DNA of 64,000 nt from positions 2,554,888 through 2,618,887 of the forward strand of contig NZ_CP059066.1 in assembly GCF_017301615.1 (NCBI RefSeq), in the 5' to 3' direction. Positions within the stretch are counted from its first letter, which is position 1, and each line of letters starts with the position of its first letter. Positions 20,271 to 51,306 of the stretch are shown piece after piece. A program made the position numbers and the translations under genes. The notes under the pieces were generated by a model. It searched no databases. It was not told the DNA's origin and saw nothing but the letters and a program-made list of their open reading frames with translations. The stretch is from Koleobacter methoxysyntrophicus (lineage in GTDB: Bacteria; Bacillota; Thermosediminibacteria; Koleobacterales; Koleobacteraceae).

Positions 20271-20284
20271 AAGTTATCCCCCCA

Positions 20285-21106
20285 TCAGGCAATCTCGTCA
20301 AAGATCCGCAGCCATATTTCCTGAGCCCTGGCTTTCTTTTCAATTAACCATGGCCGGATCTGGCGGTCTATGGTAATAAACCCCTTAGTTTCAACAAAGG
20401 AAAATGTAGTTTGGATATCAACTTCCTGCCAAAGGCATACATCAAACCAAAGGGTTTTCTCCGAAAAATCTGTTAAGGTTATTTGGGTTTCCTTAGGGAA
20501 AAATGCTTCCAACAAACTAAGAATATAGGCAGAGTAGGGCACAGCCCATGAAGCTAAAATAGGAGCCTTGTTCCGCGTTACAAAATCTCCCTCAATAGCC
20601 AAAACTTTTGCCCTTCCCAGAGCTGCATCATCAAAATAAGCAGACAAGAGGGGGCCGGTTCTGTTTTTACCCCTCCCGAAATAGCTGACCAAGTAATCCT
20701 CTAATTGCTGGGTAGAAAAACTTGCTCCTAAGATATTTCTCCCTCTGGCAAAAACTTCGTGCCACACCTTTGCCCCAATATCACCGCGGCAGAGGTGCAT
20801 GTGCACCAGCCACTGGGTTAACGTTTCCCCTAAATATTTATCGTGTAGATAAACAGCTTCGCCAAAGGAAGTAAGAACCGGTTTTTTATGTTGCTTTTGG
20901 CTCCCAGGCCTAACTACTATCAAGCCCATACCTCGGCAGTAGTCAAGTATAGCTGGCATTTTTCCTGTAGATTTACCCGTAGGAATACCTGTATCCTCAG
21001 AGATTTCCTGTAAACTACCCTCTTTCCCCAGCGCTGCATATTCTAGGAGAGCAGCAATCAACCGCCTTTCAGGAATAAATGTTTTATGAAAATTTAGCGG
21101 TAACAT
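20285..21106 (-). CDS. Divergent DUF4007-like protein B
   Basis: 273 residues. The N-terminal half resembles a winged helix: FIPERRLIAALLEYAALGKE, then GIPTGKSTGKMPAILDYCRG, which aligns in spacing with LGVGKNMVSSIRFWC of DUF4007 protein A. A shared pattern TSFGEAVYLHDKYLGETLTQWLVHMHLCR matches TELGDKLL...EASLWLLHWQLF of protein A. DUF4007 proteins occur with phosphorothioation-type and other defence loci, with unknown role. GAGGAGGG precedes the ATG. It sits 14 bases upstream of ATPase B, suggesting the two proteins work as a pair. DNA binding is inference. Confidence 0.65.
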   Translation of the reverse strand: MLPLNFHKTFIPERRLIAALLEYAALGKEGSLQEISEDTGIPTGKSTGKMPAILDYCRGMGLIVVRPGSQKQHKKPVLTSFGEAVYLHDKYLGETLTQWLVHMHLCRGDIGAKVWHEVFARGRNILGASFSTQQLEDYLVSYFGRGKNRTGPLLSAYFDDAALGRAKVLAIEGDFVTRNKAPILASWAVPYSAYILSLLEAFFPKETQITLTDFSEKTLWFDVCLWQEVDIQTTFSFVETKGFITIDRQIRPWLIEKKARAQEIWLRIFDEIA

Positions 21107-21120
21107 TGATACCCTCCTCT

Positions 21121-24100
21121 TTAGAACCTTTCTTCCAGAGGCTTAATTTGAATCTTGAACCACTTATTCACTTCTAGCTTGTCGGTTCCTGGATTATAGG
21201 CATACCCTAAAGAATAGCACTCTCCCCGTTTTAAAGCGGATAGACGTTGGATCCAGTTTTCCTGACGATCATTGGTGGCATCCGCAAGCAACTGGGCAAA
21301 AAACTTAATTTCTGTGTCCGCTGGCTTAAAGAAGAGTTTATGGCTTGCTTGAAAGAGCCGGTCTCTTTCATCTTTACTCAAATTACTCAGAGTTTGAGTG
21401 GCGAGGATCAGAGAAATTCCAAATTTGCGCCCTTCGGTAAGAAATTGCCCTAGCGGACTTTCCAGGCGGTGATCAAGGTTCTGGATTTCATCCAACACAA
21501 TTACCCGAGGATTATCTTTACTGCCCCTGGCCCGGTAATACCAGTAGAGATCTATGAGAGAAAATTCTGTAATCAAGCGGGCCGAATCTTTCATGAAGCC
21601 GGCCAGTTGGAGGACGTGGCACTTGGAACAGGGGTCTAAGAATAACTTTTCCCAGCTCTCAAGATCTTCTTCGCCAAAGGGATTCATATCCACAAAAGGC
21701 TTTATCTTGTTAATTACCGTCGTTGCCGGGTTAGCAGATAATCCGCCTCTTGCCCGAATATCCTCTAATTTGTCCAGAAGCATTGTCAGGTTAAAATTGT
21801 TTCCTACTTCCTCTACCCCAGTTTGGACCGCATTATATAAAACTGATTTTTGCTGTTCTCCGAGTTTATAAACCTCGGCAAATACTCCGCTAACCCGCTG
21901 AGCTATCTGCGTTGGAGTATCTTCCAAAAGCTCATCGTCAATATAATCGCACTGCTTGCGGAAAGGATTGATAGCCAGCGGCTGTTTGCGGATAATGTGC
22001 TGTTTTGGCTGCAATCGTTCCCGGATAATCGGTTCCAATTGCTTGTTCGTAAAACCACTCGTATAGTCTACGATAAGACTGTTAGTTCCGCACTTGCTGA
22101 GTTCTGCCAGCACAGCTTGAATGGTATAAGTTTTACCGGTTCCAGAAGCCCCAAAGATAAGCAAATGCCGGTTAGGCAAGTCGGGATGGCCAAATTCCCA
22201 GTAAACGTCACGGCCACCAGCTGTGCCGCTTCCCAGCAAAATCCGTTCGGGGATACGGATTTCTCTATTCAGGATACCATCTCCAGCTTCGACCGGTTTT
22301 ACTCTAGAAACGCCAGCTTTTCCTTTGTCGTCTTCTTCTTTTTTGGGGCAAGTAGTAGATACTTGTTTCTCGATCTCCTTGGAATCGGTTTGCTCATTAT
22401 CCGTCAATGAACTACTTTCTGGCCGTACATGTTGGTAACGCAACATCGAACGGCCCTCAAAAAGGTTGAATTTTACCCCTTCAAAGCCTGCTTTTTGAAT
22501 AAATTCTTTGCCACATTGAACCGAATAAATATTTATTTCTTGTCCGTTAATACTAAAGCTCCATTGGGGGGTTGGCACTAAGTCCCCATGGGCAACATCA
22601 GTCCAAAAAGCAATTGCTGCAGCTTCCCACTCAATGTTGTAGCATCCCTCACTTAAGCTTTCCAGAGCTTGCAGAGTTTCCCGGTATTTAGCCTTTCGGA
22701 TCTCGCCCCGGCTGGTAATTAGCCGATGGAGTTGCATCCACCAGTACCGTTGATCAGGAGGATAACCTCCCTTATCTTCATCATCTACCCCTACTGGCTT
22801 CGTTGTCACCCGGGGGCGAAACTTGAGCACCAACTGCTTCAGCCCTTCTTCCACCTGCTGCAGGGCTTTTTCTAAATACCCCTCCGACTCTTGGGCTAGC
22901 TTGCATTCGATTATTTGCGCCTTAATATTGAAGCATCCATCTTCTATTTTGGCCTGGAGCCGTAATAGATCAGGACGCATTTCGTTCGGTCCGAAGTCAA
23001 ACCAATGCAGGAATGCATCTAAAGAAATAATCTCATCACAAAATACTTCATCTTCTTTCGGAAGCAGTTTTCTCACCAATGCATAAGCAATAAAATCCCG
23101 AACATATTCGGAAGGACCGGTAGCTTTAACCACAGATAAACCAGATATTGAGAAAGCTTCTTTAATCAGGCTATCTGCAAGCCTTGAGCAAACATTTTCA
23201 TCCCTATTCCCTAATAAAATTGCAAGTTGGTCACTAATTTTTTTGACGATATCAGATAGATAAAACTGTTCGGTAGAAATGGTAAAGTTGTACTCACCAT
23301 GTGGACCCACACCAGTACCAAATCCTATTATCTCCCTTTTGTTATCTTCTTTGCTCAAAAGTTTTTCATCTACGATAGAGTCAATGCAAACTACCCACAC
23401 GCAGTTTTTGTGAGCAACATCAATAACTCGTTCCCAAGGTTGAAAATCGCTGGTGCTTACCACCACATGCTCTACATTTTCATCAAGCTGATAGTGATTA
23501 TGCAGTCGGGCCATCACTTCTGCATGCAACGTACCCAACTTAAACCGCCGGTTGCTTAGCACCAATTCCCTTTCTTTAGCTTTTCCCCCTTCTGTGACCG
23601 CACAGCTTACCTTTTCCAGCACTGGAAACTTTACATAATCCTCAAATCCACACCGGCAATTATCCCCTAGGGGAACAAACTGGCTCTTTTTGGCCCGAGT
23701 AAAATTGTTAAAGAAAATCAGGTCAAGGTCTGTCTGCTGAATTAACTTCTCTAGCTGTTCCCAATCTCCATATGGCGCTACCCGGTAAAAGACCGAAACT
23801 TTGCTGCCAGCATAGTGTTTTCGCCTTGAATTGCCCTCTGCTTCCTGCCAACGTTCCTTCCAAGCGTTTATCCAATGCAACACTCCGGTATCATCAGGGC
23901 TGTCAGAAAAAATAGTTAAGTTTAAGGAGTAAATGTCATCAGCCTTCTCTTTTGTAATTTCAGCCAGAAAAGCATCAATCCCCCCTATTATCTGCTGTAT
24001 AGTGCCGCCACAGTATATTCCCACGCTTAAGCCGTCGTTGGCATAAGGATGCAGCTTACAGTAGTCAAGGAGGACATGCTTAATCAGCTTAACCTCTTGG

Positions 24101-26331
24101 GTTTCCCGAAACAGTCCTGCATCTGATATGTCCTGGTCTTCACTGTCTTCATATTTTACTAACAAGCGGGAGCTTATCGTCGAATAACCCTCCTCGGGGT
24201 TACCCACTAGATGGATATAATCAAAACTCCGCACGCTTGTATCTAACCTTGTGTTTTCATTCAAAACTCCCATAAGCGGCCATTTTATCCGGGCTAAATT
24301 TACTAACCTATGCCAATTTTTCTCAGCCATCCCCCGAGTTCCAACCTCTGCCAACCCTTTCCTAATGTAACTGCAAAAACTGGTACACAAATAAGTATGT
24401 TGATGGTGAATCATTTCTAATAACGCAGGATGTAGTGGGGTAACTACCCCACAATTCAAGAACTCCTTCCACTGCCAATTATTATTTTGGATGTACTTGT
24501 CAGGAATAAGCATAAAAGCCTTCATTAACAGTGGCGCCAGAGGGGTCTCGGAGCTTTTGGACAGATACATTTCAAGAAGCTGCGAGTATTCTCGGCGCAC
24601 AGGAGGATCATACTTTTTAGCCATAGCTGCAAAAAGGCCGACCCGAGAGTATTCATCCAAAAATTCTTGATAACAATCAGAGAGTTTATACAGTTGGTCT
24701 CTAAGTAAATCGTTTTGATCTAATCTAGGCGCCGCAAACAGATCTTCTATAGAACACAAGTTTTTTTCAAGGGCTATATTTAAAATCCGAATTATATCTT
24801 CATCATCTTTAGCCATAAACATCTCATTTACGTAAGGGAAAGCAAAAACTGGCAAAATAATATTTTTCTCATATTTATCTACCACCCAATTAAAAAGGTT
24901 AACAACAAAACGGGCTTGGTTATTTTTCCCTAATGACCATGCAAACTTTTGCTGAAAAGACTTACCTTCTTCCCCATCAACTGTAACTTCGAAAACAAGG
25001 GCTGGTTCAGCCGCCCGTGCCGGTGTATAGTGCAAATTTGAACCCGCATTATCAGGAGAAAGGAAAGATTCAATCTTAATTTCCTTTTTGTCATCACCTA
25101 AAGTTAAATGTTGTTTTAGATATTCATCGATCCCACCTAGCAACTTCTGCAAAAAATCTTGAGCCTTTTCTTTATCTTCATTCCCATACTGATGTCTAAA
25201 CTCCAGACTTCTTAGTGAAATCTGAACGATGTTCTCCAGTGCAAGTGAACTTCCGTTTAACTTTTTGAACTCCGCCAAGGAAAGCCAAAGAGCATGTAAA
25301 AAGACTTCTAAAGTTTGCCCCTTAAGTTTTTTAATCCGTTCCTTGCTTTCCCTGTTGGATTTAAGCTTAAATTCCAATATCTTGTCATAGATGTAAATGA
25401 AGTCTGCCGTAACCAGCTTATCCCGTGCTGTAGAAGAAGCAGTATCAATATATTCCTCTAATGAAGCAAGGAGTTCTTCTAGGTCAGAAAAATCACCCAA
25501 AATTTCTTCCTCTGGGGTCTCTGAAATGCGTTCTCTGAACTGGCCTATTTTTTTCTTTGCTTTTTTCTTTTTATCTACATCAAGGAAGCTGCTGTAGCTT
25601 GTAAATCTCTGGGCAGCCGCAATATAGTTGGCAAAGGTTCTCTTGCCGAATTTTTCAAACCCAATCATATTGGGCAAGCCAAATGGTTTAAGGTCAGCTA
25701 GGATGAGTTTGAACACATCCCTAGCATCTAACGCTCTGCTGAAGTCCCTGCTTTCCAAATACCGGCTTACCTCAAGGGGATCGGTTAAGCCATACTGATA
25801 AAGATCTTTAAAAATGGCAGCTATTTTTTCAATTGTATCTTCGTTCCCATCGGGATTTACATATTTTTGCAAAGCCTGCCTAACCCAGCTCTCAAAGCTT
25901 TGCTTAAGACATATTTCCCAAAGAGACTTCTGGTCTAGATGAAAAAAATCTTGTAAGCTGGCTTGGTCGTTAATATCTTCATAACCAGCTAGCAAAACTA
26001 CTAGACAATTAACGTCAGGTCCCTTGACAAGGTGGCGTAAACTCGTTAGATTATCTGTTTGGTTATACCATCCCCGCTCCTGGATTTGATCAAATATGTT
26101 TCTTTCCTTCTGCATGCCGTTGAGCCATTTTTGCCCTAACTGATAGGCAATCCCATATTCAAATTGGATCCTCTGGTTTACAATCCTGGTTATCTCTTCC
26201 TCCACCCTCCTGCCGATTTCAAATAGGAGTTCTGGAGGATATGATGGCAAGACAAACCGAAGAATACGGCCTGTGCTCTTTTGGCTTTCATCAACTATGT
26301 ACTTGACGATAGTATCAGCCATATACTTCAT
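21121..26331 (-). CDS. DptH-like HerA/FtsK-family ATPase
   Basis: 1736 residues from the chosen start. A long helical N-terminal two-thirds without recognised domains is followed by a HerA-type motor: Walker A FGASGTGKT ending near Lys1400, the element LIVDYTSGF, Walker B VIVLDEIQNL (Asp1614-Glu1615) and ILATQTLSNL. Length and the DYT-GF motif resemble DptH of phosphorothioation-dependent restriction systems, which uses ATP-driven translocation in a restriction complex. The reading frame is open to 26406, but GGGAGG ahead of ATG 26331 makes that the start and leaves a 19-base gap from the preceding gene. No nuclease signature was recognised; the NERD protein of the operon may supply it. Confidence 0.8.
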   Translation of the reverse strand: MKYMADTIVKYIVDESQKSTGRILRFVLPSYPPELLFEIGRRVEEEITRIVNQRIQFEYGIAYQLGQKWLNGMQKERNIFDQIQERGWYNQTDNLTSLRHLVKGPDVNCLVVLLAGYEDINDQASLQDFFHLDQKSLWEICLKQSFESWVRQALQKYVNPDGNEDTIEKIAAIFKDLYQYGLTDPLEVSRYLESRDFSRALDARDVFKLILADLKPFGLPNMIGFEKFGKRTFANYIAAAQRFTSYSSFLDVDKKKKAKKKIGQFRERISETPEEEILGDFSDLEELLASLEEYIDTASSTARDKLVTADFIYIYDKILEFKLKSNRESKERIKKLKGQTLEVFLHALWLSLAEFKKLNGSSLALENIVQISLRSLEFRHQYGNEDKEKAQDFLQKLLGGIDEYLKQHLTLGDDKKEIKIESFLSPDNAGSNLHYTPARAAEPALVFEVTVDGEEGKSFQQKFAWSLGKNNQARFVVNLFNWVVDKYEKNIILPVFAFPYVNEMFMAKDDEDIIRILNIALEKNLCSIEDLFAAPRLDQNDLLRDQLYKLSDCYQEFLDEYSRVGLFAAMAKKYDPPVRREYSQLLEMYLSKSSETPLAPLLMKAFMLIPDKYIQNNNWQWKEFLNCGVVTPLHPALLEMIHHQHTYLCTSFCSYIRKGLAEVGTRGMAEKNWHRLVNLARIKWPLMGVLNENTRLDTSVRSFDYIHLVGNPEEGYSTISSRLLVKYEDSEDQDISDAGLFRETQEVKLIKHVLLDYCKLHPYANDGLSVGIYCGGTIQQIIGGIDAFLAEITKEKADDIYSLNLTIFSDSPDDTGVLHWINAWKERWQEAEGNSRRKHYAGSKVSVFYRVAPYGDWEQLEKLIQQTDLDLIFFNNFTRAKKSQFVPLGDNCRCGFEDYVKFPVLEKVSCAVTEGGKAKERELVLSNRRFKLGTLHAEVMARLHNHYQLDENVEHVVVSTSDFQPWERVIDVAHKNCVWVVCIDSIVDEKLLSKEDNKREIIGFGTGVGPHGEYNFTISTEQFYLSDIVKKISDQLAILLGNRDENVCSRLADSLIKEAFSISGLSVVKATGPSEYVRDFIAYALVRKLLPKEDEVFCDEIISLDAFLHWFDFGPNEMRPDLLRLQAKIEDGCFNIKAQIIECKLAQESEGYLEKALQQVEEGLKQLVLKFRPRVTTKPVGVDDEDKGGYPPDQRYWWMQLHRLITSRGEIRKAKYRETLQALESLSEGCYNIEWEAAAIAFWTDVAHGDLVPTPQWSFSINGQEINIYSVQCGKEFIQKAGFEGVKFNLFEGRSMLRYQHVRPESSSLTDNEQTDSKEIEKQVSTTCPKKEEDDKGKAGVSRVKPVEAGDGILNREIRIPERILLGSGTAGGRDVYWEFGHPDLPNRHLLIFGASGTGKTYTIQAVLAELSKCGTNSLIVDYTSGFTNKQLEPIIRERLQPKQHIIRKQPLAINPFRKQCDYIDDELLEDTPTQIAQRVSGVFAEVYKLGEQQKSVLYNAVQTGVEEVGNNFNLTMLLDKLEDIRARGGLSANPATTVINKIKPFVDMNPFGEEDLESWEKLFLDPCSKCHVLQLAGFMKDSARLITEFSLIDLYWYYRARGSKDNPRVIVLDEIQNLDHRLESPLGQFLTEGRKFGISLILATQTLSNLSKDERDRLFQASHKLFFKPADTEIKFFAQLLADATNDRQENWIQRLSALKRGECYSLGYAYNPGTDKLEVNKWFKIQIKPLEERF

Positions 26332-26350
26332 ACCGATAACCTCCCATTTT

Positions 26351-27976
26351 CTAGAACTGCGAGCTGAAGGGATTATGGACGATGGAACACCCATCAGAAA
26401 GTTCAATCAAAAATCCGCCAGCCCTCAGCATCTGGGTAAGCCAAGAACCCTTTTCCGGTTGCACCGAACTATTGGCAGGCAACCCACTCCAAACCACTGC
26501 ATCCAGGAGTTCTTCGCCCTCAACAGCAATACCGTACTGGCAGTAGAGCCTGTGTCTAAACTGGTGATATTGGTAGCGTTCCCCTGGTGCCAGTACAGAC
26601 AGAACTAAATAGCGGAGCAATTTATCCGTTAAAATAAATCTGGGTTCCGCCCCTCTCCACGGGCCAATAATACCCAATCGCTTGCCCAGAGTGCGGAATA
26701 ATTTATGTCCATATTTGTTTTCAGCTTCCCTTAACAACCAATCTGGCCCACTACTCTGACTTTCGCGATGCTTTGCTGCATGTTTTACTAAATCTTCGTT
26801 ATGGATAGCGCGTTGTATTAACCTAAAGACCATTTGGAGGTTGTGGCAGGTAGCCAATCGCTGCTGGCGGGTAAATCCCTCCAACGGAGAGAATACCCAG
26901 GCATAACCCAGCACACTGCCCTTGCCCTCTGTTATGGGTAAGTCAGCATACCTAATACTTTGGGCGCATAGGCTCCGCATTACCTGCAAAGCACAGCCTA
27001 TCTGCAACAGCTCTAACCGTTCAACTGGATCCAAAGCCGCCCTTAATACTCGACTTATTTCTACTGCAAAAAGGTACGCTTCTTGCCAGCTATCTTCTGG
27101 ACACCATTCGCACGATAATTTATCATCCTCCTTATTAGTTTTCCAGTGAGTTTCTGGATCAAGGTTTTCTATATAATCCACCAACTTGTCCAAGGCAACA
27201 AACTGTTCATTCTGCAACCCCTGCAACCCCTTTTGCAAAGACAAATGCAGCAAGTTAAGATCAGCTTCCGCAGGGGAAGCATCTATCGCTTTGGCAAGAG
27301 AGGCGATATCTCGGCCTTTACCAGCAAAGAGGTTGCATAGTTGAAGATACAGCAGTTCACCACCGCGGGCGAGAAAGCGATGTTTTGAAACGCTATAATA
27401 CGTATGAAATTTGTGAACCCCCTCAAGCCAATTTGTTAAAGGCGAATTTTTTGCTACAGTATTATTCCATAACGTCTCCTGAACAAGAAAACTTGTTGTA
27501 ACCGGATAAAAAGTCTGTGCACACCAAGTTCTCTCAAAACCTGCCCCCTGGAATCCCATTAAAAAGTCCTCAACCCATTCCTTTACTTCTTCAGGTTTTT
27601 TGCTCCATGTCCGAACTTTCTCAGTAAATGTTTTCATTAACTTTTCATAATGATCTTCATGCACCTTGTGCCGGGAATCAAGGGGTGAAGCACATAATAG
27701 GGCAAATAGTTTTAGGTTTAGTTTTATCGGGGGCTTGTATTTTAACTTTTCGCCCTGAACAGACGCCCAGCGGTACAACTCAGGTAAAGGTGGTAAAGGA
27801 TTTTTAATCGGTCCATTAGAGCCAATCCACTTCTCTGAAAAAGCAACAGACATAAATTCTGCCAGCAGCTCCACTACCGTCTGATCTGTAAAGAATCGCG
27901 AGCCAAACAATCGGATAGCGGGGTTAAATGCTTGATTTGCCTCATCTATCTTGGGGAAGGGATTTGGTAAACCCAT
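26351..27976 (-). CDS. Unrecognised cassette protein (541 aa)
   Basis: I do not recognise the family. 541 residues, probably soluble and largely helical. A CEWC motif in KLSCEWCPEDSW (about residue 287) could bind metal. The C-terminal 120 residues (KLFRTLGKRLGIIGPWRG, then FILTDKLLRYLVLSVLAPGE) look like a winged-helix or wHTH-containing region. The start ATG shares its A with the stop TGA of the kinase gene, a translational coupling signal, and AGAGGTGA lies just upstream. It occupies the position that DptG takes between DptF and DptH in dpt operons, but no sequence resemblance to DptG was noticed. Confidence 0.75.
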   Translation of the reverse strand: MGLPNPFPKIDEANQAFNPAIRLFGSRFFTDQTVVELLAEFMSVAFSEKWIGSNGPIKNPLPPLPELYRWASVQGEKLKYKPPIKLNLKLFALLCASPLDSRHKVHEDHYEKLMKTFTEKVRTWSKKPEEVKEWVEDFLMGFQGAGFERTWCAQTFYPVTTSFLVQETLWNNTVAKNSPLTNWLEGVHKFHTYYSVSKHRFLARGGELLYLQLCNLFAGKGRDIASLAKAIDASPAEADLNLLHLSLQKGLQGLQNEQFVALDKLVDYIENLDPETHWKTNKEDDKLSCEWCPEDSWQEAYLFAVEISRVLRAALDPVERLELLQIGCALQVMRSLCAQSIRYADLPITEGKGSVLGYAWVFSPLEGFTRQQRLATCHNLQMVFRLIQRAIHNEDLVKHAAKHRESQSSGPDWLLREAENKYGHKLFRTLGKRLGIIGPWRGAEPRFILTDKLLRYLVLSVLAPGERYQYHQFRHRLYCQYGIAVEGEELLDAVVWSGLPANSSVQPEKGSWLTQMLRAGGFLIELSDGCSIVHNPFSSQF

Positions 27977-30900
27977 CAAATCACCTCTAATCCATCTTCA
28001 CTTACCTGCAAATTCAGTTCTTCAAACCTGCGGTCAGGACGGATTCGCAGCAGGTATAAGGTATCGCTTTTATCCTCTTGAAAGTTTTTGCTGCATTCCT
28101 TCAACAATTTGCCCTTAAAGTCTTCCAGCCGGTTACTATAGTAGGCTGACAATTCTTGAGCTATTTCACCTTCGTAACGGCGGGCAACGTAGTCAAAGAA
28201 AGGAAGGTCAAGCTCCAACTCTACTGGTTCTGCTGCTGCTTTGTAGATAAGAGAGAAAACTTTATTGCTACCTCCATCAGTTTTATATTGATAGCGGGGC
28301 TTCACCACGAGCTCAAAGTCATCTTGGCGCAATCTCGCCAGTATCATCTGAGTTCCCACATTATTGCCAGGTGATTTTAAGGTAATGTATATATCTTTCC
28401 CTTCCTTCCACGTTTCTTCTGGTAAACGCAATCCGGTAAAGTGCTCTTGCAAGACATGTAAAACCTTAATGCAAAACCTGCGCAGGTGAGAACGCAAGGG
28501 CGCATTCTCACGCGTAACTTTTAAGTAATCCAGGAGCATAGGCGAATCTAAAAAGGTAGAAATAAATTTTTCCCGTTCATCACCTTCAAACCTGCCGCAA
28601 AAGTAGGCCAAACGTCTAATTTGACGGCGTAGTACCGATTTGTCTATTGCCTGGGGAGAATGATTTTTAATCAAAAGCTTGTATGCCTCTCTAGCTTCGG
28701 AATTTAACACAGTATATGCCTCTTCCTTCAGCCAGGTCTTCCTCTCAAATTTAGGCACAAGAGTTGAGCCAAACTTAATCTCTTGGATAACCTTTACCGG
28801 CACTAACTTCATCGCCTCAGGAACAACCTTGCTTCCGTCATCTCCGAAAAACCGATTAAAAAATCCCAAGCGGCACAAGAGCTGCCGCCTAGCCAGCAGG
28901 GACATATTTGCCACATCAGAACAATTTAGTCCACCGGTAAGAGCATAGGCTAGATGTCCTGTCATCTGGCGCATCGTAAGCCGCTGGCCATATTCATAAA
29001 GACGTTTGTAAAGGAGATACACCCGCTCCAAAACCAGCTCCAAGTTGCTTTGCAGCAACTTAACATTGCTTAAAATTGGACAATCTCCATAGAACTTACA
29101 TTGAGAGCAACCAGTCCAGTTTTCGGGCTCTAACATTCGTTTGAATACATCACAGGCAATGTTGATACTGTCCAATTGACCGATGTTTAGTAAACGAAAG
29201 CGATTATCCATTATTTCAGTAGGTTCACTGGCTTCTAGTGCGCTAAGTAAAATAGTTTCGCTAACATCTTCTCCCATCACTGCCTTTAGCTTTCCAAAGG
29301 CCTCCAATAAGGTTCCGGTGTTGGATACAATTAGGTATGTTTTCAACTCATTTTCCAAAGCTTCTTTAAGAACATAGGCGCGATCCTTTTCTGGCAACTC
29401 GCTCATATCTTTTATGATAACGAGATTTTGATCTGGAACTTCTTGTCGAGGATTAAGCTCCCGAAAATTATCACCCATAACTTTTTGCAGAATATCAACA
29501 GCAATGGTAGTTTTACCATCCCCGGCATTGCCGGTTAAAATAACATTTTTCCCTTCTTCTAGCCATTGATGTATTGTATCGGTTAGCGGGTTGCGTATAT
29601 AAATCTTGGCGAAATGTTCATTTCTAATTTGACACTCTGCAATGGCGTTTTCGTTACCGGCTGAGGCACAAGAAAGAGAGTTGAGGTAGGCAACAAATGA
29701 GTTATATTCATCAAGGTCGAGTGCAGGTTCTCTGGCTGCGTCTTTAGTATCAGCAGGCAGAGTTTCTACTTCATCTGCTTCCTCAAGTGATGTTTCCTCT
29801 TCAATAGGTGCACCCTTTACAAACATATCCCACATTTCTGTAATAGTAGCAAAACCTTCCCTAGGCTCAGTAGCAACGGCCTTTAGCAACCAGGGGTACA
29901 AATCCCGGAATTCTGGCAAGTCCTCAGGCAGCATCGGCTTATCACCAACAGCTGGATTTGCATAAGGTTTTTGACCAAATAGCCATTCCCATAGGGTTAC
30001 CCCTAAGGCAAAGAGATCTCCCCTAGGTGAAAAATCCCGATCCGCTCCCCTAATAGTATCAGGAGGAATGTAACCGCTGGTTCCCTGAAAGACATCTACC
30101 CTGGGTTCACCAGCAAGGCCAAAATCGATTATGACCGGTTTCTGTTTAGAGGTAATTATTATATTTTCAGGTTTTATATCACCGTGAACAATTTGCTTCC
30201 CTTCTCCGTTCTCATCTTTATGTTCATGGAACGCTCGAATGCCTTCCATTAGCGAGCGGGCAACGCTGTTAAAAGTATTCCTGTCTGGTCTTTCCTTGCG
30301 GCCAATTAGTTCCCGAAGGGTTTGTCCCGGAATATAATCCATGACAATAAAGTAGCGTTTGCCATGCCAGTGCCCGGGTCTGCGCTCACAGCGAACCACA
30401 TAGGGCGAGCGAATTTCGCAACCTACATCCAACTCTCTGAAAACTCTGTCTAGTGACGTTTCGTAGTTAAAAACTTTTAGGACAACTATCTGCCCTCGGG
30501 GGGCCTTCGCCTTGTATATTTGTGTTTCTGCCCCCTTGCCAATAAACTCAACTATCTCATACATATTATATATATCCCCTGGCTGCAGCTTGGAGTTCTC
30601 AGGCAATACTTCAACGTCCCTGTCCTTTTTCGCATTGTAGCGAGTCAAAACAGAAAGAACAGTATCAATATCCTTTACGCGCTTTGTCCGATCAGCCGTA
30701 ATCATTTTCTCAATGACTCGAACTTTAGCTTCCGGAACACCTGCTTTCACCAATCTCTGCCTATTTTCGGTAGACAATGCTCCCCCCCGAGCCACAAACT
30801 CCCGCGTAGACTTAAAAGGCTTTTCACCTGTCAACAGATGATAAGCGATTACGCCTAGACTGAAATAGTCAGTGCTTTCATCAATATCTTCGCCGAAAAG

Positions 30901-32505
30901 AAGCTCCGGTGCTACATAACCGTCATCTTTAATTTTGGCAGCATCGGGGATTACAGTAAGGCGGTTGTCTTCTAGTTGAAAAGAGAGATCGAAATTCATC
31001 AGTTTAGGTATTCCGTTCTTAATTAGAATGTTTTCCGGTTTAACCGCACGGTGAATTATATTTTCTTGGTGGGCCTTATTCAATGCCAAAGCTATATTTC
31101 TGCATATTGTTAACCCCTGCTCTAAAGGCAATCTGCCTTCAGACTCATAAATTAAATCTTGCAACGTCCCCGTTTCGGACCATTCTGAAATTTCAATAAT
31201 ATCGCCTTCCTCTGTCTGACTCACAGATACTTTATGAATATAGGGATGTTCGCCGATTTGTTGCACCGCATCCAATGTATTTAAAGCTATTTTTCTAAAA
31301 CGTTCTCTTTCCTGTTCCGATTCTTGCACAAAACGAAACACTCTTAGTCGGTGCAAACCCTTGGCCTTTACACCAATTGGTCGGGCCAATAATTCTATAT
31401 ACTCTGGCTTTTGAGAAAGATATTCCACAGTTTCATAACCTGGTACCGTATATTCCTTCTGCTGTTTTGGCCTATTTAGATCAGCCAAAAAATCTGCAAT
31501 TGCACACACTTGGTTCTCTTCCAATATTTGCATCTTCTTATCTCTTCTCTTTAAGTAGGATATAAAATCTGCTATAGATGCGAAGGTTAAATTGTGCCGA
31601 CCTTTTATGTCCGCAACCTCAGGTGAATCAGCTCTTTCTACTATGGCTTCTGGATTTGTCAATACGACAACAGACTCTACCCATACATCGGGATACGTAA
31701 CAAATCTATGTTGATAAATTCCCTTCAAAACTTTACATTTAAAGCTGTTGTTTTTGTGGGGATCAACCCGATACCGGTTTTTATTAATACGCCATTGATA
31801 ACCTTCAATCTCTATATGCCCAGACCAATGCTTTAGCTCAACAACATAGATTCCAGAACGAGCTATTATAATAAGATCATACTCATAGTAATTGTTCGTT
31901 TGTACATCAAAAATGTAAACATTTGCTAACGTTTTAATTATTTTTTTATCTAATAAACGTATAATACAATCGATTGCGCTTTTTTCATAATCAAATAAAG
32001 ACCCGTGAAGATAATATTTACTTGTATTCTCCTTTAGTAGCATCGGGTCATCATCTGTGTTTTCCGGTTGAGTATCAGCAAACTTGTTTAATATAGAAAT
32101 AAGTTTTTTTTTAATTATTTCTCTTGTATCTTTATTTGTAAAAAATTGAAATACATCATCACTTAAAAAAGCGTAATCTACATTTCGATTTAGATCACCG
32201 GGCCCTCCCACTGTTGACATTTCAGCTAAAAAATTATCCCGACCAGATTTTGGTTTTAAGTGCCAGAAGTTATCACTTTTCAAATGAAAAAAAGGAATAT
32301 ATGGCCTATTGGAAGCATGATATTTATATTTATTTAAATATTTAGAAAAAATCTTTTTAAGCTGTTGATCGAAGCATATTTTATTTGCTGGCTCGGCCTG
32401 TTCACCTAGTAAATCAATGACAGTTAACAGCAAAATAAATTTATGGGGCTTATGAAACTTTTTTGCCATTGCATCAAGGTGTGCCAAAAAATTTTCAAAA
32501 GTCAT
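27976..32505 (-). CDS. Multidomain protein: reader-like N terminus, NERD nuclease-like, pseudokinase, Ser/Thr kinase, P-loop NTPase
   Basis: 1509 residues. (1) 1-140: HKFILLLTVIDLL and PYIPFFHLKSDNFWHL, a pattern like the N-terminal sulfur-binding domains of ScoMcrA-type endonucleases (inference). (2) About 165-340: NERD domain with PD-(D/E)xK-like Asp210, Glu223, Lys225 (VVELKHWSG). (3) 360-620: pseudokinase, HRD changed to HRA (485-487) and DFG to NFD (504-506). (4) 645-900: complete kinase, Lys677, Glu691, HGDIKPEN with Asp776, DFG 794-796. (5) 930-1509: P-loop GNAGDGKTT (992-1000) and a Cys cluster GCSQCKFYGDC. NERD-kinase layout recalls PglW of Pgl/BREX type 2. DNA for residues 1 to about 215 is far more A+T-rich than the rest. 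GAAGGAT precedes the ATG. Confidence 0.85.
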   Translation of the reverse strand: MTFENFLAHLDAMAKKFHKPHKFILLLTVIDLLGEQAEPANKICFDQQLKKIFSKYLNKYKYHASNRPYIPFFHLKSDNFWHLKPKSGRDNFLAEMSTVGGPGDLNRNVDYAFLSDDVFQFFTNKDTREIIKKKLISILNKFADTQPENTDDDPMLLKENTSKYYLHGSLFDYEKSAIDCIIRLLDKKIIKTLANVYIFDVQTNNYYEYDLIIIARSGIYVVELKHWSGHIEIEGYQWRINKNRYRVDPHKNNSFKCKVLKGIYQHRFVTYPDVWVESVVVLTNPEAIVERADSPEVADIKGRHNLTFASIADFISYLKRRDKKMQILEENQVCAIADFLADLNRPKQQKEYTVPGYETVEYLSQKPEYIELLARPIGVKAKGLHRLRVFRFVQESEQERERFRKIALNTLDAVQQIGEHPYIHKVSVSQTEEGDIIEISEWSETGTLQDLIYESEGRLPLEQGLTICRNIALALNKAHQENIIHRAVKPENILIKNGIPKLMNFDLSFQLEDNRLTVIPDAAKIKDDGYVAPELLFGEDIDESTDYFSLGVIAYHLLTGEKPFKSTREFVARGGALSTENRQRLVKAGVPEAKVRVIEKMITADRTKRVKDIDTVLSVLTRYNAKKDRDVEVLPENSKLQPGDIYNMYEIVEFIGKGAETQIYKAKAPRGQIVVLKVFNYETSLDRVFRELDVGCEIRSPYVVRCERRPGHWHGKRYFIVMDYIPGQTLRELIGRKERPDRNTFNSVARSLMEGIRAFHEHKDENGEGKQIVHGDIKPENIIITSKQKPVIIDFGLAGEPRVDVFQGTSGYIPPDTIRGADRDFSPRGDLFALGVTLWEWLFGQKPYANPAVGDKPMLPEDLPEFRDLYPWLLKAVATEPREGFATITEMWDMFVKGAPIEEETSLEEADEVETLPADTKDAAREPALDLDEYNSFVAYLNSLSCASAGNENAIAECQIRNEHFAKIYIRNPLTDTIHQWLEEGKNVILTGNAGDGKTTIAVDILQKVMGDNFRELNPRQEVPDQNLVIIKDMSELPEKDRAYVLKEALENELKTYLIVSNTGTLLEAFGKLKAVMGEDVSETILLSALEASEPTEIMDNRFRLLNIGQLDSINIACDVFKRMLEPENWTGCSQCKFYGDCPILSNVKLLQSNLELVLERVYLLYKRLYEYGQRLTMRQMTGHLAYALTGGLNCSDVANMSLLARRQLLCRLGFFNRFFGDDGSKVVPEAMKLVPVKVIQEIKFGSTLVPKFERKTWLKEEAYTVLNSEAREAYKLLIKNHSPQAIDKSVLRRQIRRLAYFCGRFEGDEREKFISTFLDSPMLLDYLKVTRENAPLRSHLRRFCIKVLHVLQEHFTGLRLPEETWKEGKDIYITLKSPGNNVGTQMILARLRQDDFELVVKPRYQYKTDGGSNKVFSLIYKAAAEPVELELDLPFFDYVARRYEGEIAQELSAYYSNRLEDFKGKLLKECSKNFQEDKSDTLYLLRIRPDRRFEELNLQVSEDGLEVI

Positions 32506-32520
32506 TTTACTATCCTTCTT

Positions 32521-33333
32521 TCAAGTTAAAAATCTTAAGGTCTTAAGCAGTTTACACGTAGTATACTCTGTTTTTAAGTCCCTATTTTCAACACCGTTTT
32601 TACCTGAATGCTGAAATTGTTCTTTTTTATTAAGTAGCTCACCTAAGCTAATATCTTGACACCAAGTAAACCTGATTCCCTTCTCAGGAAGATAAGTTTC
32701 ATATTTCATCGCTTTATAATAAAGACTTGGATGATGTTCATAAAGTCCTAACCACTCCTTCTTTGTTTGATAGAAACAAAAGTAGCAGCCAGACCTTTTA
32801 CGCCAAGAATAATAAGCAGGGAATCCTAAACCTGAACCAACAAGAAGATCTCGGATATCTTTATAAACTAAGCCATCCTCAATAAACGGAAAATGAACTT
32901 TTAGGTAAGGGTTTCGCGCAATTAACCCTTTACGTTCTCGCGCCTCATCCGCTCGTAGGCCTACATAGCTATGTACTATACATCCTGGAAATCTTTCATT
33001 AATCCATTTTTCATAAGGTATAAGTTTCAAGACCTCTGTACACCATCTGTTCTTAGGGGAAGGCAGGTAAGTAAAAGTTCCATAAGGAGTTTTTTTTACT
33101 TTTGTTAAAGCCCAATAATCATCCCAACCCTTTTCGGGCTTTACAACAGTTATATCAATATTTAATACTGCCCTTATTCTATCCAAATACTCATAAGTTT
33201 CAGGCAGCTCGCAACCACTGTCAGTAAAAACATACTCTAGGTCCAAATGCGGGTATTTTTCTCTTAAATACACTGCTAAGGCTGCACTATCCTTGCCTCC
33301 TGACAATGCAAGAATATGTCGCTCTTGTTTCAC
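32521..33333 (-). CDS. DndC/CysH-like PP-loop sulfurtransferase
   Basis: 270 residues from GTG 33333, chosen because AGGTGG lies eight bases upstream; the longer GTG start at 33345 overlaps that signal. The PP-loop SGGKDS (11-16) adenylates substrates in the PAPS-reductase/N-type ATPase fold. RWCTEVLKLIP (Cys98) and GCYFC (Cys183, Cys186) are the expected iron-sulfur ligands of DndC-like enzymes; YVGLRADEARE is the conserved superfamily arginine motif. In Dnd and Ssp systems such a protein inserts sulfur into the DNA backbone with a cysteine desulfurase. It is shorter than DndC (about 500). No desulfurase is in the operon. A sulfate-assimilation role is unlikely given the context. A+T-rich relative to neighbours. 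Confidence 0.85.
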   Translation of the reverse strand: MKQERHILALSGGKDSAALAVYLREKYPHLDLEYVFTDSGCELPETYEYLDRIRAVLNIDITVVKPEKGWDDYWALTKVKKTPYGTFTYLPSPKNRWCTEVLKLIPYEKWINERFPGCIVHSYVGLRADEARERKGLIARNPYLKVHFPFIEDGLVYKDIRDLLVGSGLGFPAYYSWRKRSGCYFCFYQTKKEWLGLYEHHPSLYYKAMKYETYLPEKGIRFTWCQDISLGELLNKKEQFQHSGKNGVENRDLKTEYTTCKLLKTLRFLT

Positions 33334-33337
33334 GGTA

Positions 33338-36300
33338 TCAACCACCTAACATGATTTTGTCAGCCAAAAGTGCCAATACTGCTCTAGATTTTTCCTGAGG
33401 CAGAGCTAATATTTGCTCCAGGATCCGCTCTACCTCAGGGTCACTATTGTCAATTCTTACAACTTCCCTTTTTATATTACCATCAGATTTCATCACGCTG
33501 ATCATCTGAACATTCTCTATGGGCAAGTCATGAGCAGTTGCCAACGTCTCTAACTGCTTAATACGCTCGGCATAATCAGCTAGCTTAGCTTCAAATACTG
33601 CAAGGTCCTGATCCTTCCAGGCATCTACCGGCTTCTTCACTACTGCTCCAGCTATGCCCCTTACCCAATCCTCCACATTGGATTCATCTCTAGCCATAGC
33701 TTGAAGGACAGGTTTTAGATCAGTAGCATCACAAATTGTTATTAAATTCTGGGCAATCGTTCTTTGGGAAGAACATAACTGTTCAAGACTTAAGCTGGGA
33801 AAACTTTTCAGCAGCGTTTCTTGTATTCTCTTGTTTAACCGCTCATATGCCTGGCCAAGCTCACTTAGTGTAGATCGTAAACTGTTCTCCAAGTCCTCAA
33901 CCCATGTATCTGCGCTCTTTCCGTCAATATCTATTCCTAATGCTTTGGGCAGGTCCTCGAATAAAAAGCTTAGAGGATCGACAGCATTTGCAATAACTGA
34001 TCGCACTCGCTGGGACCTCATTGATATGTTCCGCGTCTGCTTTGAATAACGCGGCAATTGATCAACAAACTTCATTAAAGGCCCTAGAACCCCCAACATA
34101 GTCGCGTTTCTCAAGTTTGGATCTGTTTTTATCTGAGATTTTTTTAAAACAGCCTTGTATGCAGCGAAAACTTTTTCCTGCATACCGTTAGTGATAAATT
34201 TCTTGACAGTAAATAACTCAGGGCGTTTAAGGAGTAAGGCCATATCTGCGGCAGACAAATATGGGTGGTAAGCACCCTCGCGAAATACAGTTAAGTTTTC
34301 CGCATTTACAAGCAAGTAAAGCGATATGTAAATAAGGGCAGGACCTTGCTTCAAACCAAAGGGAATCTCCCGCAGCCTATCTAACATGGCAGCAACGCTG
34401 ACCCCTTGGTCATCAGTCTTTTCTAAGAGTTGGTCAAGTTCTTCCCATGCTTTATTCAAATTAGGATCAGTTCCTTCTAGGGTTAACTGCCAAGTGCCGG
34501 TCTTTTTATTCTTTATGTGCAGTCCCTTAGCAAGAAGAAGAGATTTATATATAGCCACTTCTGGCCCCCAGCCAGTAAAACCCAGGTTTTCTTCCTCTGC
34601 CCTAGTTGCCATTGCCTCAACAAGTTTCCGGCGGGCCCTCACAGCAGCACTCGATAGCTTTTCACTGCTGATAATCTCGTTTTTAATGGTAGGTGCATAT
34701 TTGTAATAAGCTTGACAAAGTTCAGATATCTTTACTGATAACTCTCTACGGCTTAGAATTTGGCACTTTTCTCCTTCAGTATACCAGAGCAGACCAGCTG
34801 CCCCTGGGGCAAAAGCCCTTGCTAGATACTCTCGAAATCTGTCCTGGGACACCCGAAGTCTAAAATTCACCTCTTTACGTGCAACCTTATCATGGGTAAG
34901 TTGGTGATAATTTTCCAAGACACGCTGACAGGCAACAATCTCTAAGGCTATCTCTGATAAGGTTTCCTTTACAGGGGCATGAGCCACTAGAATCGGGCGC
35001 CCATCACTGCAAACTTTGGGAACCTTCCCTGGCTCTTTTTGGGTCCCATAACAGTAAATCAAAAGACCATCAAACCCTTTTTGGGGAGCTAGCTTATCCG
35101 ACAGAGATTCTACATCAAGCCAACGCCGCTCAAACCGGCGCATAATTCCCTTTTGATGGGCATAACGGGCAGCAATTATAGGGGATAAAGGTAAGTTTGC
35201 TTCTAGAATTTCTTCCAGAGAACCTAAAGATAGTTTAGACTTCTCTTTGTCAATTGCCCCACTTACGTCAAAATCTGAACCTTCCCACAGGCGGAATTCA
35301 CCAGCATAATCCCTATAAAAAATTACCCCTCGCTGGTCAAGAAAATCTAAGATTTTTTTTACCTTTTCTGGTGCCCAGAGGTAGGAGTATTCCATAATTG
35401 AAGCGATAACTTCAAAGCTTGCCTTTAGTCCCAATGACCCTGCCAACAAATTAAGAATCCCAATGTTTTTTAATAAAACAGATTCTTCCTCGCTAAATTG
35501 ATCTGCAGATTGAATAATATCGTTAATCTCGACCCACCGCTGAGTTGCAGGTCTATTTGCTAATGACGTATGGCTAAACTGAAAGAAATAATCATACAGA
35601 CAATCTAGACCCACAGCAGGCAGTCTTTTGTCAGGATCAAAGTACATTCTTTCAATTTGAGCAGGAAGAGCGTACATGTGCCCACTAGATAAGAAGGAAA
35701 CCAACGTTCTTTCGTTTTGCGCAAACCGACGGCAGAGTTCAATTAAAGCTAAACTTGTAAGTGGATGCAATGGATATAGTCTGACCATGGAGTCAACGTC
35801 TAAATATTCTTTTCCTGCCACGCTGATATTCTCTAAGGATTCTTTAATCCTCATTTCCCATTCTTTAACTCGTTTTTGCAAATCTTCCTTAAAATTATGA
35901 TTAAGAATAGTTTTAATTAAATTAAGCATCTGAGCAGTGGACTCGATAAACGATATTTCTTCAAAGCGCCCTTGGACTTTATTCCATTCTTGTTGTTGGA
36001 CTGCAGAAAATCCAGACATATATTCATCAAAAGCCTGATGCAAACAAACCCACAAATAGACATTATTCATCTCTGCTAACTGCTGGAGAATAAAAAGATC
36101 TCCATTATGGCAATGGTACGATAAGTATTCTAAATTTTTGCCTAGTTCGTCTATCACAATAACAAGAGGGGTTTCGGCTAACTTCGCTACAGCTTTAAAT
36201 AAAGTTAAAAGCTCGTTGGGTTCAATTGAACCATTTTGCAACATCTCGTCTATATTAGTACGAATTTTATCTTTATTTTTTAGTTCAGATTGGGAAACAG

Positions 36301-36718
36301 CACTTTGTAAACCTCGGGCTAAAGTAGTATTCATTGACTCAAAGGAAGCAACAATAGGAACCCGGAAAAATCCCGCTTCCCCAGTTATTTGCTCTTTTTT
36401 TTCTAAAAACCTGTCGTATAGTTCTTGATTGGACAGCTTTAACTTATGCAAAGCCGTTTGTGTTAAACTACTAGTTTGTGGACCAGTAACAGCAAGAAGA
36501 AAGTTGAGGAAGGCAGATTTACCCATGCCATACGGCCCAACCAAAGACCAAGCAGTTACCTTTTCATCACCCAGAGCCGCTATAAAGCGCTCCATAACTT
36601 CCTGGGCTTTTGCAGTAACTTGGTAATTATTTAAAACATCAAGCTCGGATTTGTCTCGCTCTAGATTAATAGACCGGGCGAATTTCTTATTCAGGACAAT
36701 AACATCTGATAGCTTCAT
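33338..36718 (-). CDS. Giant AAA-type ATPase A
   Basis: 1126 residues, starting MKLSDVIVLNKKFARSINLERD. Walker A GPYGMGKS at 61-68, Walker B VIVIDELGKNLEYL around 187-200 (Asp190, Glu191), then a sensor-like segment VYLWVCLHQAFDEY. The rest is helical with no recognised enzyme domain. The ATPase type resembles the large ATPases of Pgl/BREX loci and of other DUF4007-associated loci. It begins three bases after the DUF4007 A stop, with GGGGAGAT upstream, and ends four bases before the sulfurtransferase start, so the three are probably co-translated. Resemblance to ATPase B in start sequence, P-loop position and Walker B suggests an ancient duplication. Confidence 0.85.
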   Translation of the reverse strand: MKLSDVIVLNKKFARSINLERDKSELDVLNNYQVTAKAQEVMERFIAALGDEKVTAWSLVGPYGMGKSAFLNFLLAVTGPQTSSLTQTALHKLKLSNQELYDRFLEKKEQITGEAGFFRVPIVASFESMNTTLARGLQSAVSQSELKNKDKIRTNIDEMLQNGSIEPNELLTLFKAVAKLAETPLVIVIDELGKNLEYLSYHCHNGDLFILQQLAEMNNVYLWVCLHQAFDEYMSGFSAVQQQEWNKVQGRFEEISFIESTAQMLNLIKTILNHNFKEDLQKRVKEWEMRIKESLENISVAGKEYLDVDSMVRLYPLHPLTSLALIELCRRFAQNERTLVSFLSSGHMYALPAQIERMYFDPDKRLPAVGLDCLYDYFFQFSHTSLANRPATQRWVEINDIIQSADQFSEEESVLLKNIGILNLLAGSLGLKASFEVIASIMEYSYLWAPEKVKKILDFLDQRGVIFYRDYAGEFRLWEGSDFDVSGAIDKEKSKLSLGSLEEILEANLPLSPIIAARYAHQKGIMRRFERRWLDVESLSDKLAPQKGFDGLLIYCYGTQKEPGKVPKVCSDGRPILVAHAPVKETLSEIALEIVACQRVLENYHQLTHDKVARKEVNFRLRVSQDRFREYLARAFAPGAAGLLWYTEGEKCQILSRRELSVKISELCQAYYKYAPTIKNEIISSEKLSSAAVRARRKLVEAMATRAEEENLGFTGWGPEVAIYKSLLLAKGLHIKNKKTGTWQLTLEGTDPNLNKAWEELDQLLEKTDDQGVSVAAMLDRLREIPFGLKQGPALIYISLYLLVNAENLTVFREGAYHPYLSAADMALLLKRPELFTVKKFITNGMQEKVFAAYKAVLKKSQIKTDPNLRNATMLGVLGPLMKFVDQLPRYSKQTRNISMRSQRVRSVIANAVDPLSFLFEDLPKALGIDIDGKSADTWVEDLENSLRSTLSELGQAYERLNKRIQETLLKSFPSLSLEQLCSSQRTIAQNLITICDATDLKPVLQAMARDESNVEDWVRGIAGAVVKKPVDAWKDQDLAVFEAKLADYAERIKQLETLATAHDLPIENVQMISVMKSDGNIKREVVRIDNSDPEVERILEQILALPQEKSRAVLALLADKIMLGG

Positions 36719-36721: not shown

Positions 36722-37642
36722 TCATCTCCCCGAATAGTATTTATTCAATGCTTCAAAGTATAGCTCTTCTGGAGACTCATTAAAATGTAACTGCAAGCTT
36801 CCTAAAACATTAACCAACGAAAAACCTTTTAGGTCCTTATTTGCTTCGCTCAAATAATGTCCCACCGCGGTTTCAGGTAACTTAAAAACAACGCCTGGAG
36901 AGTTAATCCCAAAAGCTAAACGCTGAAGCGATATGGTTTTTTGCCTCGACGATAAATAGGAAGCTACATAAGAAAAGCAGGCAGCAGCAAAAATCAGCGG
37001 CGGAAGATTTGGTTTAGGTGCAGTATTAAAACTAACGTGGTATTTCTCTCCTGCCCTGTGCATAAGTCCTAATTGGGTAAAAGGACATTCAATTTCCGAA
37101 TCTTTTTCTTCCATATCTTCATACATTCTAATTATACAAGAAGCATCCCGTCTAAAAGTATTGAGGGACATCTTTGCCAAATTCGGATATGCTTGAGCAG
37201 CACTATAAATTATCCTGCTCAACTCCTTACTATCGAAACTCCACAGATTACAACGGTTAAAGGCTAAAGGCCAACTTACAGCTTCAAAGGGAGGAACAAA
37301 CAGTTGCCAGTGCAACAACCATAAAGAGGCTTCGTCCTCGAGATAAGGATCCCAGCCATTGTTATCGCTAAGTAGCTTATCGCCCAATTCAGTTGGAACA
37401 ATCTCATTTCTATTATCTACCGTGATTAACTTAAATGCTAGACACCAAAAACGTATAGAGCTGACCATGTTTTTGCCAACCCCAAGTTTTTCAATGGCAT
37501 CCGGCTCTTTAAAGATATTGTTATTTTCTATAACGGCATCAAATCCTTTTTTAAGCCAGCCATATCTCGGTGTAAAGGTTTCATGTCTTCCTAATTTACC
37601 CTGCGCTATCCATTCTTCAACATTAAATTCTTGCTTATTCAT
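36722..37642 (-). CDS. DUF4007 family protein A, first gene of the cassette
   Basis: 306 residues from ATG 37642. A clear DUF4007 signature: ETFTPRYGWLKKGFD, DAIEKLGVGKNMVSSIRFWC and EASLWLLHWQLF. The family is associated with phosphorothioation-like and other defence loci; its biochemical role is unknown, but the N-terminal part looks like a winged helix, so DNA binding or transcriptional control is possible. The frame is open to TTG 37663; GGAGG overlaps that TTG, so the first downstream ATG is preferred although the spacing is long. The start is therefore uncertain by seven residues. It heads the eight-gene operon. Confidence 0.8.
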   Translation of the reverse strand: MNKQEFNVEEWIAQGKLGRHETFTPRYGWLKKGFDAVIENNNIFKEPDAIEKLGVGKNMVSSIRFWCLAFKLITVDNRNEIVPTELGDKLLSDNNGWDPYLEDEASLWLLHWQLFVPPFEAVSWPLAFNRCNLWSFDSKELSRIIYSAAQAYPNLAKMSLNTFRRDASCIIRMYEDMEEKDSEIECPFTQLGLMHRAGEKYHVSFNTAPKPNLPPLIFAAACFSYVASYLSSRQKTISLQRLAFGINSPGVVFKLPETAVGHYLSEANKDLKGFSLVNVLGSLQLHFNESPEELYFEALNKYYSGR

Positions 37643-37716
37643 TTCAGCGTCCACATCCTCCAATGTTTTGAGGCGCTCCCCTAAAAAATAAGCCGAACAG
37701 CACGCTCAAATCTAAT

Positions 37717-48714: not shown

Positions 48715-50112
48715 TTAAGCAGGATATGTTGAAAAGCTGTTTTCATCTTGGTTTAACAAATCTGGATCAATTCTATACTTTTCTATCATTCTCTTCTGAA
48801 AGAAATTCATTGCTACTTGAGGGAATAGGGCATAAGTCAATAGATCTTCTTCTTTTTCTATATATGTCGAAATCTCTTTTTTAATTTTTTCTAGTTGTGG
48901 TTCTAAAAGATCTGCTGGTCTACAGGTAATAGGTTCTTCATCTCCTATTATCTTTTTACGTATTTCGTCTTTAATAGGAACCGTTGGCCTTCCGTAAAAA
49001 CCCTTTACATAGGACTTTATTTCATTTAAAACCATTTTATATCTTTCACCGGACAACACATTTAAAACAGCCTGGGTTCCAATTATTTGACTGGTTGGAG
49101 TAACCAGAGGGGGATATCCCATTTCTTCCCTTACCTTTGGAACCTCTTTGATGACATCTTCAAATTTGTCAAGGGCATTCTGTTGCTGTAATTGGGATGT
49201 TAGATTAGATAACATTCCCCCCGGTATCTGGTAGTTAATTACCCTTGTATCTACTCCTGTTAACATTATATCAGGATTGTGTTTTTCTTTTACTTTTTTA
49301 AAGTGCTGTGCTATGTTTGACAATAAGGTTAAATTCAAACCTGTATCATAGGGTGTATTTCTCAATGCAGCTACTATACTTTCGGTAGCAGGTTGTGATG
49401 TGCCTAAAGCAAGTGATGAAATTGCGGTATCAATTATATCTGCTCCAGCTTCAATAGCTTTAAGGCACGTCATTGAACCCATCCCACTAGTATAATGGGT
49501 ATGCAGCTGTATGGGGACATCTATTTTCTCTTTCATTTTTGTAACTAATTCATAGGCATCATATGGAGCCAAAATCCCTGCCATGTCTTTTATGCATATT
49601 GAATCAGACCCCATATCGACTAATTCTTTTGCAGTATCTATAAATTTCTGTACATTATGGACAGGGCTTATGGTATAAACAACCGTTCCCTGTACGTGAG
49701 CTCCTTCCCTTTTGGCAACCTTAATGGCCATTTCCATGTTCCGCGTATCGTTTAAAGCGTCAAATACCCGTATGATATCTAAACCATTTTCTATAGCTTT
49801 GCATACAAATAGCTCGACTACATCATCAGGGTAATGTTTGTAACCTACTAAATTTTGTCCCCGCAGCAACATTTGCAGCTTTGTTTGTTTAATTTTTTCC
49901 CTGATTTTCCTTAGTCTTATCCATGGATCTTCATTCAGAAATCTTATACATGAATCAAAGGTCGCACCACCCCATACTTCTAACGAATGGTAGCCAACCT
50001 GATCTAGTTTTTCCAAAACCGGTTCCATTTCTTCAAAAGACATCCTCGTAGCTAACAGGGACTGATGGGCGTCCCTTAATATGGTATCAGTTATTTTAAT
50101 TTTTCTGTTCAA
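48715..50112 (-). CDS. PycB/5S-type carboxyltransferase (oxaloacetate decarboxylase alpha-like)
   Basis: 465 residues with the alpha-carboxyltransferase TIM barrel: DTILRDAHQSLLATRM, EVWGGATFDSC, RGQN, IRVFDALND and the carbamylated Lys region SICIKDMAG. There is no biotin domain at the C terminus; the separate carrier MmdC nearby can serve. In transcarboxylase, a 5S subunit of this type moves carboxyl between biotin and pyruvate/oxaloacetate. TTG start with AAGGAGG. Last gene of the cluster, A+T-rich again after the G+C-rich mmd genes. Confidence 0.9.
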   Translation of the reverse strand: MNRKIKITDTILRDAHQSLLATRMSFEEMEPVLEKLDQVGYHSLEVWGGATFDSCIRFLNEDPWIRLRKIREKIKQTKLQMLLRGQNLVGYKHYPDDVVELFVCKAIENGLDIIRVFDALNDTRNMEMAIKVAKREGAHVQGTVVYTISPVHNVQKFIDTAKELVDMGSDSICIKDMAGILAPYDAYELVTKMKEKIDVPIQLHTHYTSGMGSMTCLKAIEAGADIIDTAISSLALGTSQPATESIVAALRNTPYDTGLNLTLLSNIAQHFKKVKEKHNPDIMLTGVDTRVINYQIPGGMLSNLTSQLQQQNALDKFEDVIKEVPKVREEMGYPPLVTPTSQIIGTQAVLNVLSGERYKMVLNEIKSYVKGFYGRPTVPIKDEIRKKIIGDEEPITCRPADLLEPQLEKIKKEISTYIEKEEDLLTYALFPQVAMNFFQKRMIEKYRIDPDLLNQDENSFSTYPA

Positions 50113-50129
50113 GAGAATTCCTCCTTTTT

Positions 50130-51287: not shown

Positions 51288-51306
51288 TTTTCGGGCCTCC
51301 TTTTTT

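Follow-up and report, generated by a model that had tools for sequence, protein, structure and literature searches.

In the SspBCD-SspFGH system of Vibrio anguillarum FF-93, a single cassette holds SspB, SspC, SspD, SspF, SspG, and a large gene of HerA/FtsK-like type; SspE is absent, the desulfurase lies outside the cassette, and SspFGH damages DNA that lacks the phosphorothioate (PT) mark (PMC8092258). A domain order of wHTH, NERD, inactive kinase, active kinase, and P-loop core has already been described for some DndF proteins (PMC10853773), and the sulfur-binding domain (SBD) has been equated with the wHTH in the literature on DndF/PglW-type proteins (PMC10853773, PMC12839542). The known SBDs, among them those of ScoMcrA, SprMcrA, and Hga (PMC6224610, PMC7470945, PDB 8h0l), occur for the most part as fusions with HNH, in type IV enzymes directed against PT-DNA. 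According to one review, DNA recognition in Ssp falls to SspB, and doubts have been raised about whether PT restriction and modification evolve in concert (PMC12707154); the recognition domains of PT systems have also been described as undemonstrated, with DndC/SspD as a guess (PMC7464106).

The stretch of DNA analysed here (the window; 64,000 nucleotides from Koleobacter methoxysyntrophicus) carried on its minus strand, at about 15.9-37.7 kb, a cassette which, judged by its genes, is an Ssp phosphorothioation defence system with SspB-C-D and SspF/G/H-like genes. These stood in the order sspB, sspC, sspD, effector, an sspG-like gene, and a gene in the position of sspH, and the cassette ended with two further genes, one of them again DUF4007 and the other large, with a stretch resembling SspC. 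The genes around the effector were the following (related loci are given as L numbers):

36722..37663, minus strand: sspB, DUF4007 (PF13182, 3.4e-86; PADLOC SspB, 6.3e-98)
33338..36718, minus strand: sspC, AAA-type ATPase (PADLOC SspC, E 0)
32521..33345, minus strand: sspD, PAPS-reductase-like sulfur transferase, the writer (PF01507, 4.6e-11; PADLOC SspD, 1.5e-87)
26351..27979, minus strand: sspG-like gene (PADLOC SspG, 2.3e-17)
21121..26406, minus strand: sspH-position gene, HerA/FtsK-like ATPase (PF01935, 1.6e-9; same place in L041-L046)

The sspB, sspC, and sspD writer trio was complete by PADLOC, and the sspF/sspG/sspH set was present as well, with SspF contained in the effector, an SspG-like protein, and sspH assigned from its HerA/FtsK-like sequence and its place. 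The cassette shares this gene content with the Vibrio system, including the absence of SspE and of an internal desulfurase gene: candidates for the cysteine desulfurase (SspA or IscS) were found only elsewhere in the genome, as three full-length genes of the class V aminotransferase/desulfurase family. Unlike in Vibrio, the SspF-like core was fused behind an SBD, NERD, and two kinases, related cassettes swap a writer-reader module in one block, and further genes resembling SspB and SspC come afterwards. A Type 2 BREX (PglW) identity was rejected, as only the PglW-like part was present while PglX and PglZ had no match among the scanned cassette proteins, and was further opposed by the SspD and SspF-like core standing in the cassette instead.

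Behind the sspH-position gene, at 15942-21106, lay the second DUF4007/SspB-like gene (20285-21106) and then the gene with the SspC-like stretch, of 1442 aa; L041, L042, and L045 also had this pair, or its start, and its beginning is present in L043 and L046. As listed, 56 bases (26351-26406) are shared by the sspG-like gene and the sspH-position gene, whose annotated start may therefore lie too far upstream; homologues of the sspH-position gene align only from residue 23-26 onward.

The effector is a protein of 1509 aa whose SBD, NERD, two kinases, and SspF-like core follow one another in that order:

32071..32505, minus strand: sulfur-binding domain (SBD), the predicted reader, about residues 1-145 (8h0l match, profile, invariant pocket columns)
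31657..31965, minus strand: NERD nuclease domain, residues 181-283 (PF08378, 3e-14; alignment)
29806..31365, minus strand: tandem protein kinase domains (PF00069, 8.1e-61, two stretches)
27976..29715, minus strand: SspF-like P-loop core, residues 931-1509 (PADLOC SspF, 5.6e-42 at residues 935-1479)

The NERD residues D210, E223, and K225 were invariant in the alignment, and of the kinases the first (about residues 381-630, HRAVKPEN) is likely inactive, while the second (641-900) has HGDIKPEN. Pfam gave no name to the N-terminal domain; it matched the solved sulfur-binding domain SBDHga1 (PDB 8h0l) at E 6.2e-19, as did the corresponding domain of L044 (5.6e-16) and the profile (3e-34). In ScoMcrA, the sulfur pocket is formed by H116, R117 (a lysine in most homologues), and P165 (PMC6224610), and these were paired by motif and spacing with H21, K22, and P71 of the SBD, which were invariant in 12/12 sequences of both types described below. 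The SBD is predicted to read the sulfur mark, so that the reader domain of the module proposed in the earlier note on this DNA would be this SBD, at residues ~15-140, rather than the NERD nuclease of the same protein. It shares the sequence match and the H, K, and P pocket with the known SBDs, but fronts an Ssp effector beside the writer. Likewise, the effector has the domain order of the DndF/PglW-type fusions (PMC10853773, PMC12839542), but its gene adjoins sspD in an Ssp cassette and its first domain changes along with SspD; a literature search found no report of an N-terminal domain exchanging jointly with SspD.

From hand counts, the earlier note had described an A+T-rich block between 31,850 and 33,340, and computed sliding G+C showed that the block is real. 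In 300-base windows, G+C dropped from about 0.38-0.48 at 28,000-31,700 to 0.26-0.33 at 31,700-32,750, and beyond that rose to 0.35-0.39 through sspD and 0.42-0.44 in sspC. GC3 was 0.27 in the C-terminal part of SspD (SspD-C) and 0.23 in the SBD, whereas SspC, SspG, and the remainder of the effector had 0.37-0.44. Unsupervised GC3 segmentation returned 31,780-33,204 as the best low block (GC3 of 0.22 versus 0.37 outside, with 0.34 predicted by the amino acids), or 31,621-33,171 with a log-likelihood ratio (LLR) of 24.0 if sspH was included. This LLR was reached by 0/500 amino-acid-preserving shuffles (maximum 13.4) and by none of 300 block shuffles (maximum 16.0). The G+C of 45-53% given earlier for the remainder was somewhat high (mostly 0.37-0.51 in 40-codon windows), and the block did not end at the start of the sulfurtransferase gene but inside it, at about codon 48-66. 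On the other side, a change had been placed near effector residue 215: it does lie by the NERD region, but as an edge softer than that in sspD, at residue about 190-295. At its start, the effector contributes ~190-240 residues to the segmented block.

Low G+C of this kind could be intrinsic or selected, through expression, regulation, or domain composition, and would then be no trace of exchange. The block was indeed present in most members regardless of their backbone: segmentation recovered it at the same place in L041, L042, L043, L044, and L026, and in a wider form in L045. It also persisted in L041 and L042 despite strong synonymous divergence, where amelioration might be expected, with a fourfold-site G+C of 0.33-0.39 in SspD-C and SBD compared with 0.73-0.80 in SspC and 0.71-0.74 in the rest of the effector. 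Amino-acid content was ruled out as the cause, because the drop shows in GC3 and at fourfold sites after allowing for amino acids, and the block held no excess of internal promoters (8 found against 8.3 expected). Moreover, 5/6 plasmid Ssp loci with other downstream genes, in which sspD has no SBD neighbour, showed little or no step (L051 a mild one), and segmentation found none in L021 or L027; L021 argues against an intrinsic cause, but the lack of a step in both loci also counts against the exchange reading. An intrinsic cause is considered unlikely. Between L041 and L042, dS was 1.68 and saturated in the module and 0.84 in the SspB/SspC backbone, which fits separate acquisition, although selection for low G+C could also fit; the low module G+C in most backbones suggests an origin in an A+T-rich pool.

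Relatives were collected by SspD and effector searches in a sample of genomes, 752 counted, and yielded one clean swap pair, L043 and L044. These belong to two species of one genus, and their cassettes are about 98% identical over ~15.6 kb, from sspB into sspH, apart from one ~1.2-kb block that is wholly replaced (L043:7309-8496) and runs from SspD codon 76 to about effector residue 187. The edge in sspD was sharp, with full identity until codon 76 and then an abrupt loss, and on the effector side identity returned near residue 187, at QSNNYYEYD, just ahead of the NERD catalytic residues. Amino-acid identity inside the block was 47% for SspD-C and 36% for the SBD, and outside it was.99 for SspB,.98 for SspC, 1.00 for the N-terminal part of SspD,.99 for SspF, and.96 for SspG. 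Between these two cassettes, alike almost everywhere else, the module was replaced as a unit. AU tests on the module data rejected L043 and L044 as sisters (p 0.0014; SspD-C alone 1e-5), whereas the backbone data rejected the split by type (SspB+C 4e-9, SspF+G 0.003); with L043 left out, the SspB+C tree did not significantly reject this split (p 0.09).

As each genome of the swap pair had one SspD match at E 1e-30, a local shufflon or a silent second copy was dismissed, and so was a chimeric MAG, the L043 genome being one contig and the genes being open in both L043 and L044. Further class searches for swap pairs added one more type II locus, L056, and nothing else, the viral contigs searched held no SspD relative, and the plasmids searched held no close effector copy, their SBD matches being mostly HNH enzymes. 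A second small stretch of about 100 bases in sspG (L043 ~13,010-13,110) was also replaced relative to L044.

Carried over by protein alignments, the edges of the swap pair define the following stretch of the window:

31941..33150, minus strand: projected exchange module, SspD codon 66 to end and effector residues 1-189

Both projected edges fall within the originally noted 31,850-33,340, and the SspD PP-loop (SGGKDS) sits in the conserved N-terminal part that is not exchanged (33,151-33,345). By homology, the block in the window belongs to this module. I consider it fairly likely that the block is the writer-reader module of the Ssp defence, made up of SspD after the PP-loop and the SBD of the adjacent effector, and exchanged as one piece. 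Co-exchange of writer and reader, as proposed in the earlier note, was directly visible in L043 and L044; in the window, composition and matching homologous edges indicate that its copy has probably been exchanged too. The separate phylogeny foreseen for the block likewise appeared in the swap pair and not for the window, whose module groups with L021 as its backbone does; because module and backbone trees do not conflict here, composition is what speaks for exchange in this lineage.

Two types of module were found overall, and the type of SspD equalled the type of SBD in 14/14 loci carrying both parts. Across 11 taxa, SBD distance followed SspD-C distance after SspC was removed (partial r 0.85, p 5e-5) but did not follow SspB distance (r 0.02), and SspB, SspC, and the rest of the effector did not track module type. 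The same module type preceded four effector architectures: NERD-kinase-kinase-SspF, NERD-one kinase-SspF (L023), SspF without NERD or kinases (L041, L042, and the type II locus L045), and HNH (L022). At L022:5790-9822, the place of the kinase effector behind a type I SspD is taken by two proteins, an SBD-HNH protein of 290 aa and a PLD/SF2 helicase protein.

Such pairing might also come about by passive linkage, with SspD-C and SBD travelling together as neighbours between conserved recombination starts and no functional matching between them. The parts are adjacent, the exchange edges fall in the nearest conserved sequence, and crossovers between SspD-C and SBD would be unlikely because of the little homology between types noted above. 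The SBD nevertheless accompanied SspD across all four architectures, with no mixed pair among the 14 loci. Passive linkage, which could account for joint exchange by itself, is compatible with this but considered improbable.

In DndC, motif reading is predicted for a loop whose sequence in E. coli B7A is GYPAPTRSFRW, and a three-residue change in it abolishes modification (PMC12193691). Its counterpart in the window lies inside the module:

33043..33069, minus strand: SspD residues 93-101, YLPSPKNRW, counterpart of the DndC specificity loop (by-eye alignment)

The core of this loop, which matches the DndC specificity triplet, was nearly alike in both SspD types, so that any change of motif would have to come from the residues that flank it. 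On the reader side, ScoMcrA Y164 also contacts bases and varies with the motif (PMC6224610), and at the corresponding SBD residue 70 the alignment showed an I/T/N/H-P pattern for type I sequences and Y/F/H for type II, with the clear contrast between types around it (NRPYxPF versus LExPF settings). The similar triplet, and the replaced stretch in sspG, which is not known as a reader, could be taken to mean that the swap leaves the motif unchanged and instead helps SspD or the effector evade inhibitors encoded by phages, or diversifies a surface on which the two make contact. This has a rather small chance of being right, given that the base-reading position of the SBD was type-specific and the sulfur-pocket residues were not.

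Under the preferred reading of a matched writer-reader exchange, homologous recombination at the conserved ends, the N-terminal part of SspD and the start of the NERD core, would renew the recognition part of SspD and, in the same event, the SBD reading the resulting mark. The cell would change its self-label, keep self-recognition, and avoid self-attack, with the SBD controlling the NERD/kinase/SspF-G-H effector by the presence or absence of the mark on DNA. As SspFGH of Vibrio damages unmarked DNA, a mismatched reader would be costly. I infer that the swap alters the DNA motif, and one recombination event may change both self-label and reader. The chances seem about even that C-terminal SspD, and not SspB, sets the sequence that receives the single-stranded phosphorothioate, that the SBD is its matched reader, and that replacing the module rewrites the entire self-label at once, whatever the effector and the other writer parts may be.

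In type I restriction, the specificity part of hsdS is replaced by recombination between conserved flanks. Module exchange works like this exchange of recognition domains and, if the matched reading is true, PT systems have a counterpart of it; hsdS is one shared subunit, however, whereas here the writer and reader parts belong to two neighbouring genes and are exchanged jointly. Since L043 and L044 differ mainly in SspD-C and SBD, they offer a ready-made natural experiment on where PT specificity lies, and they also bear on whether the restriction side must match it.

Outside the cassette, G+C was 0.46-0.51 at 50001-54000 amid about 0.34-0.38, and this stretch is possibly an rRNA operon.
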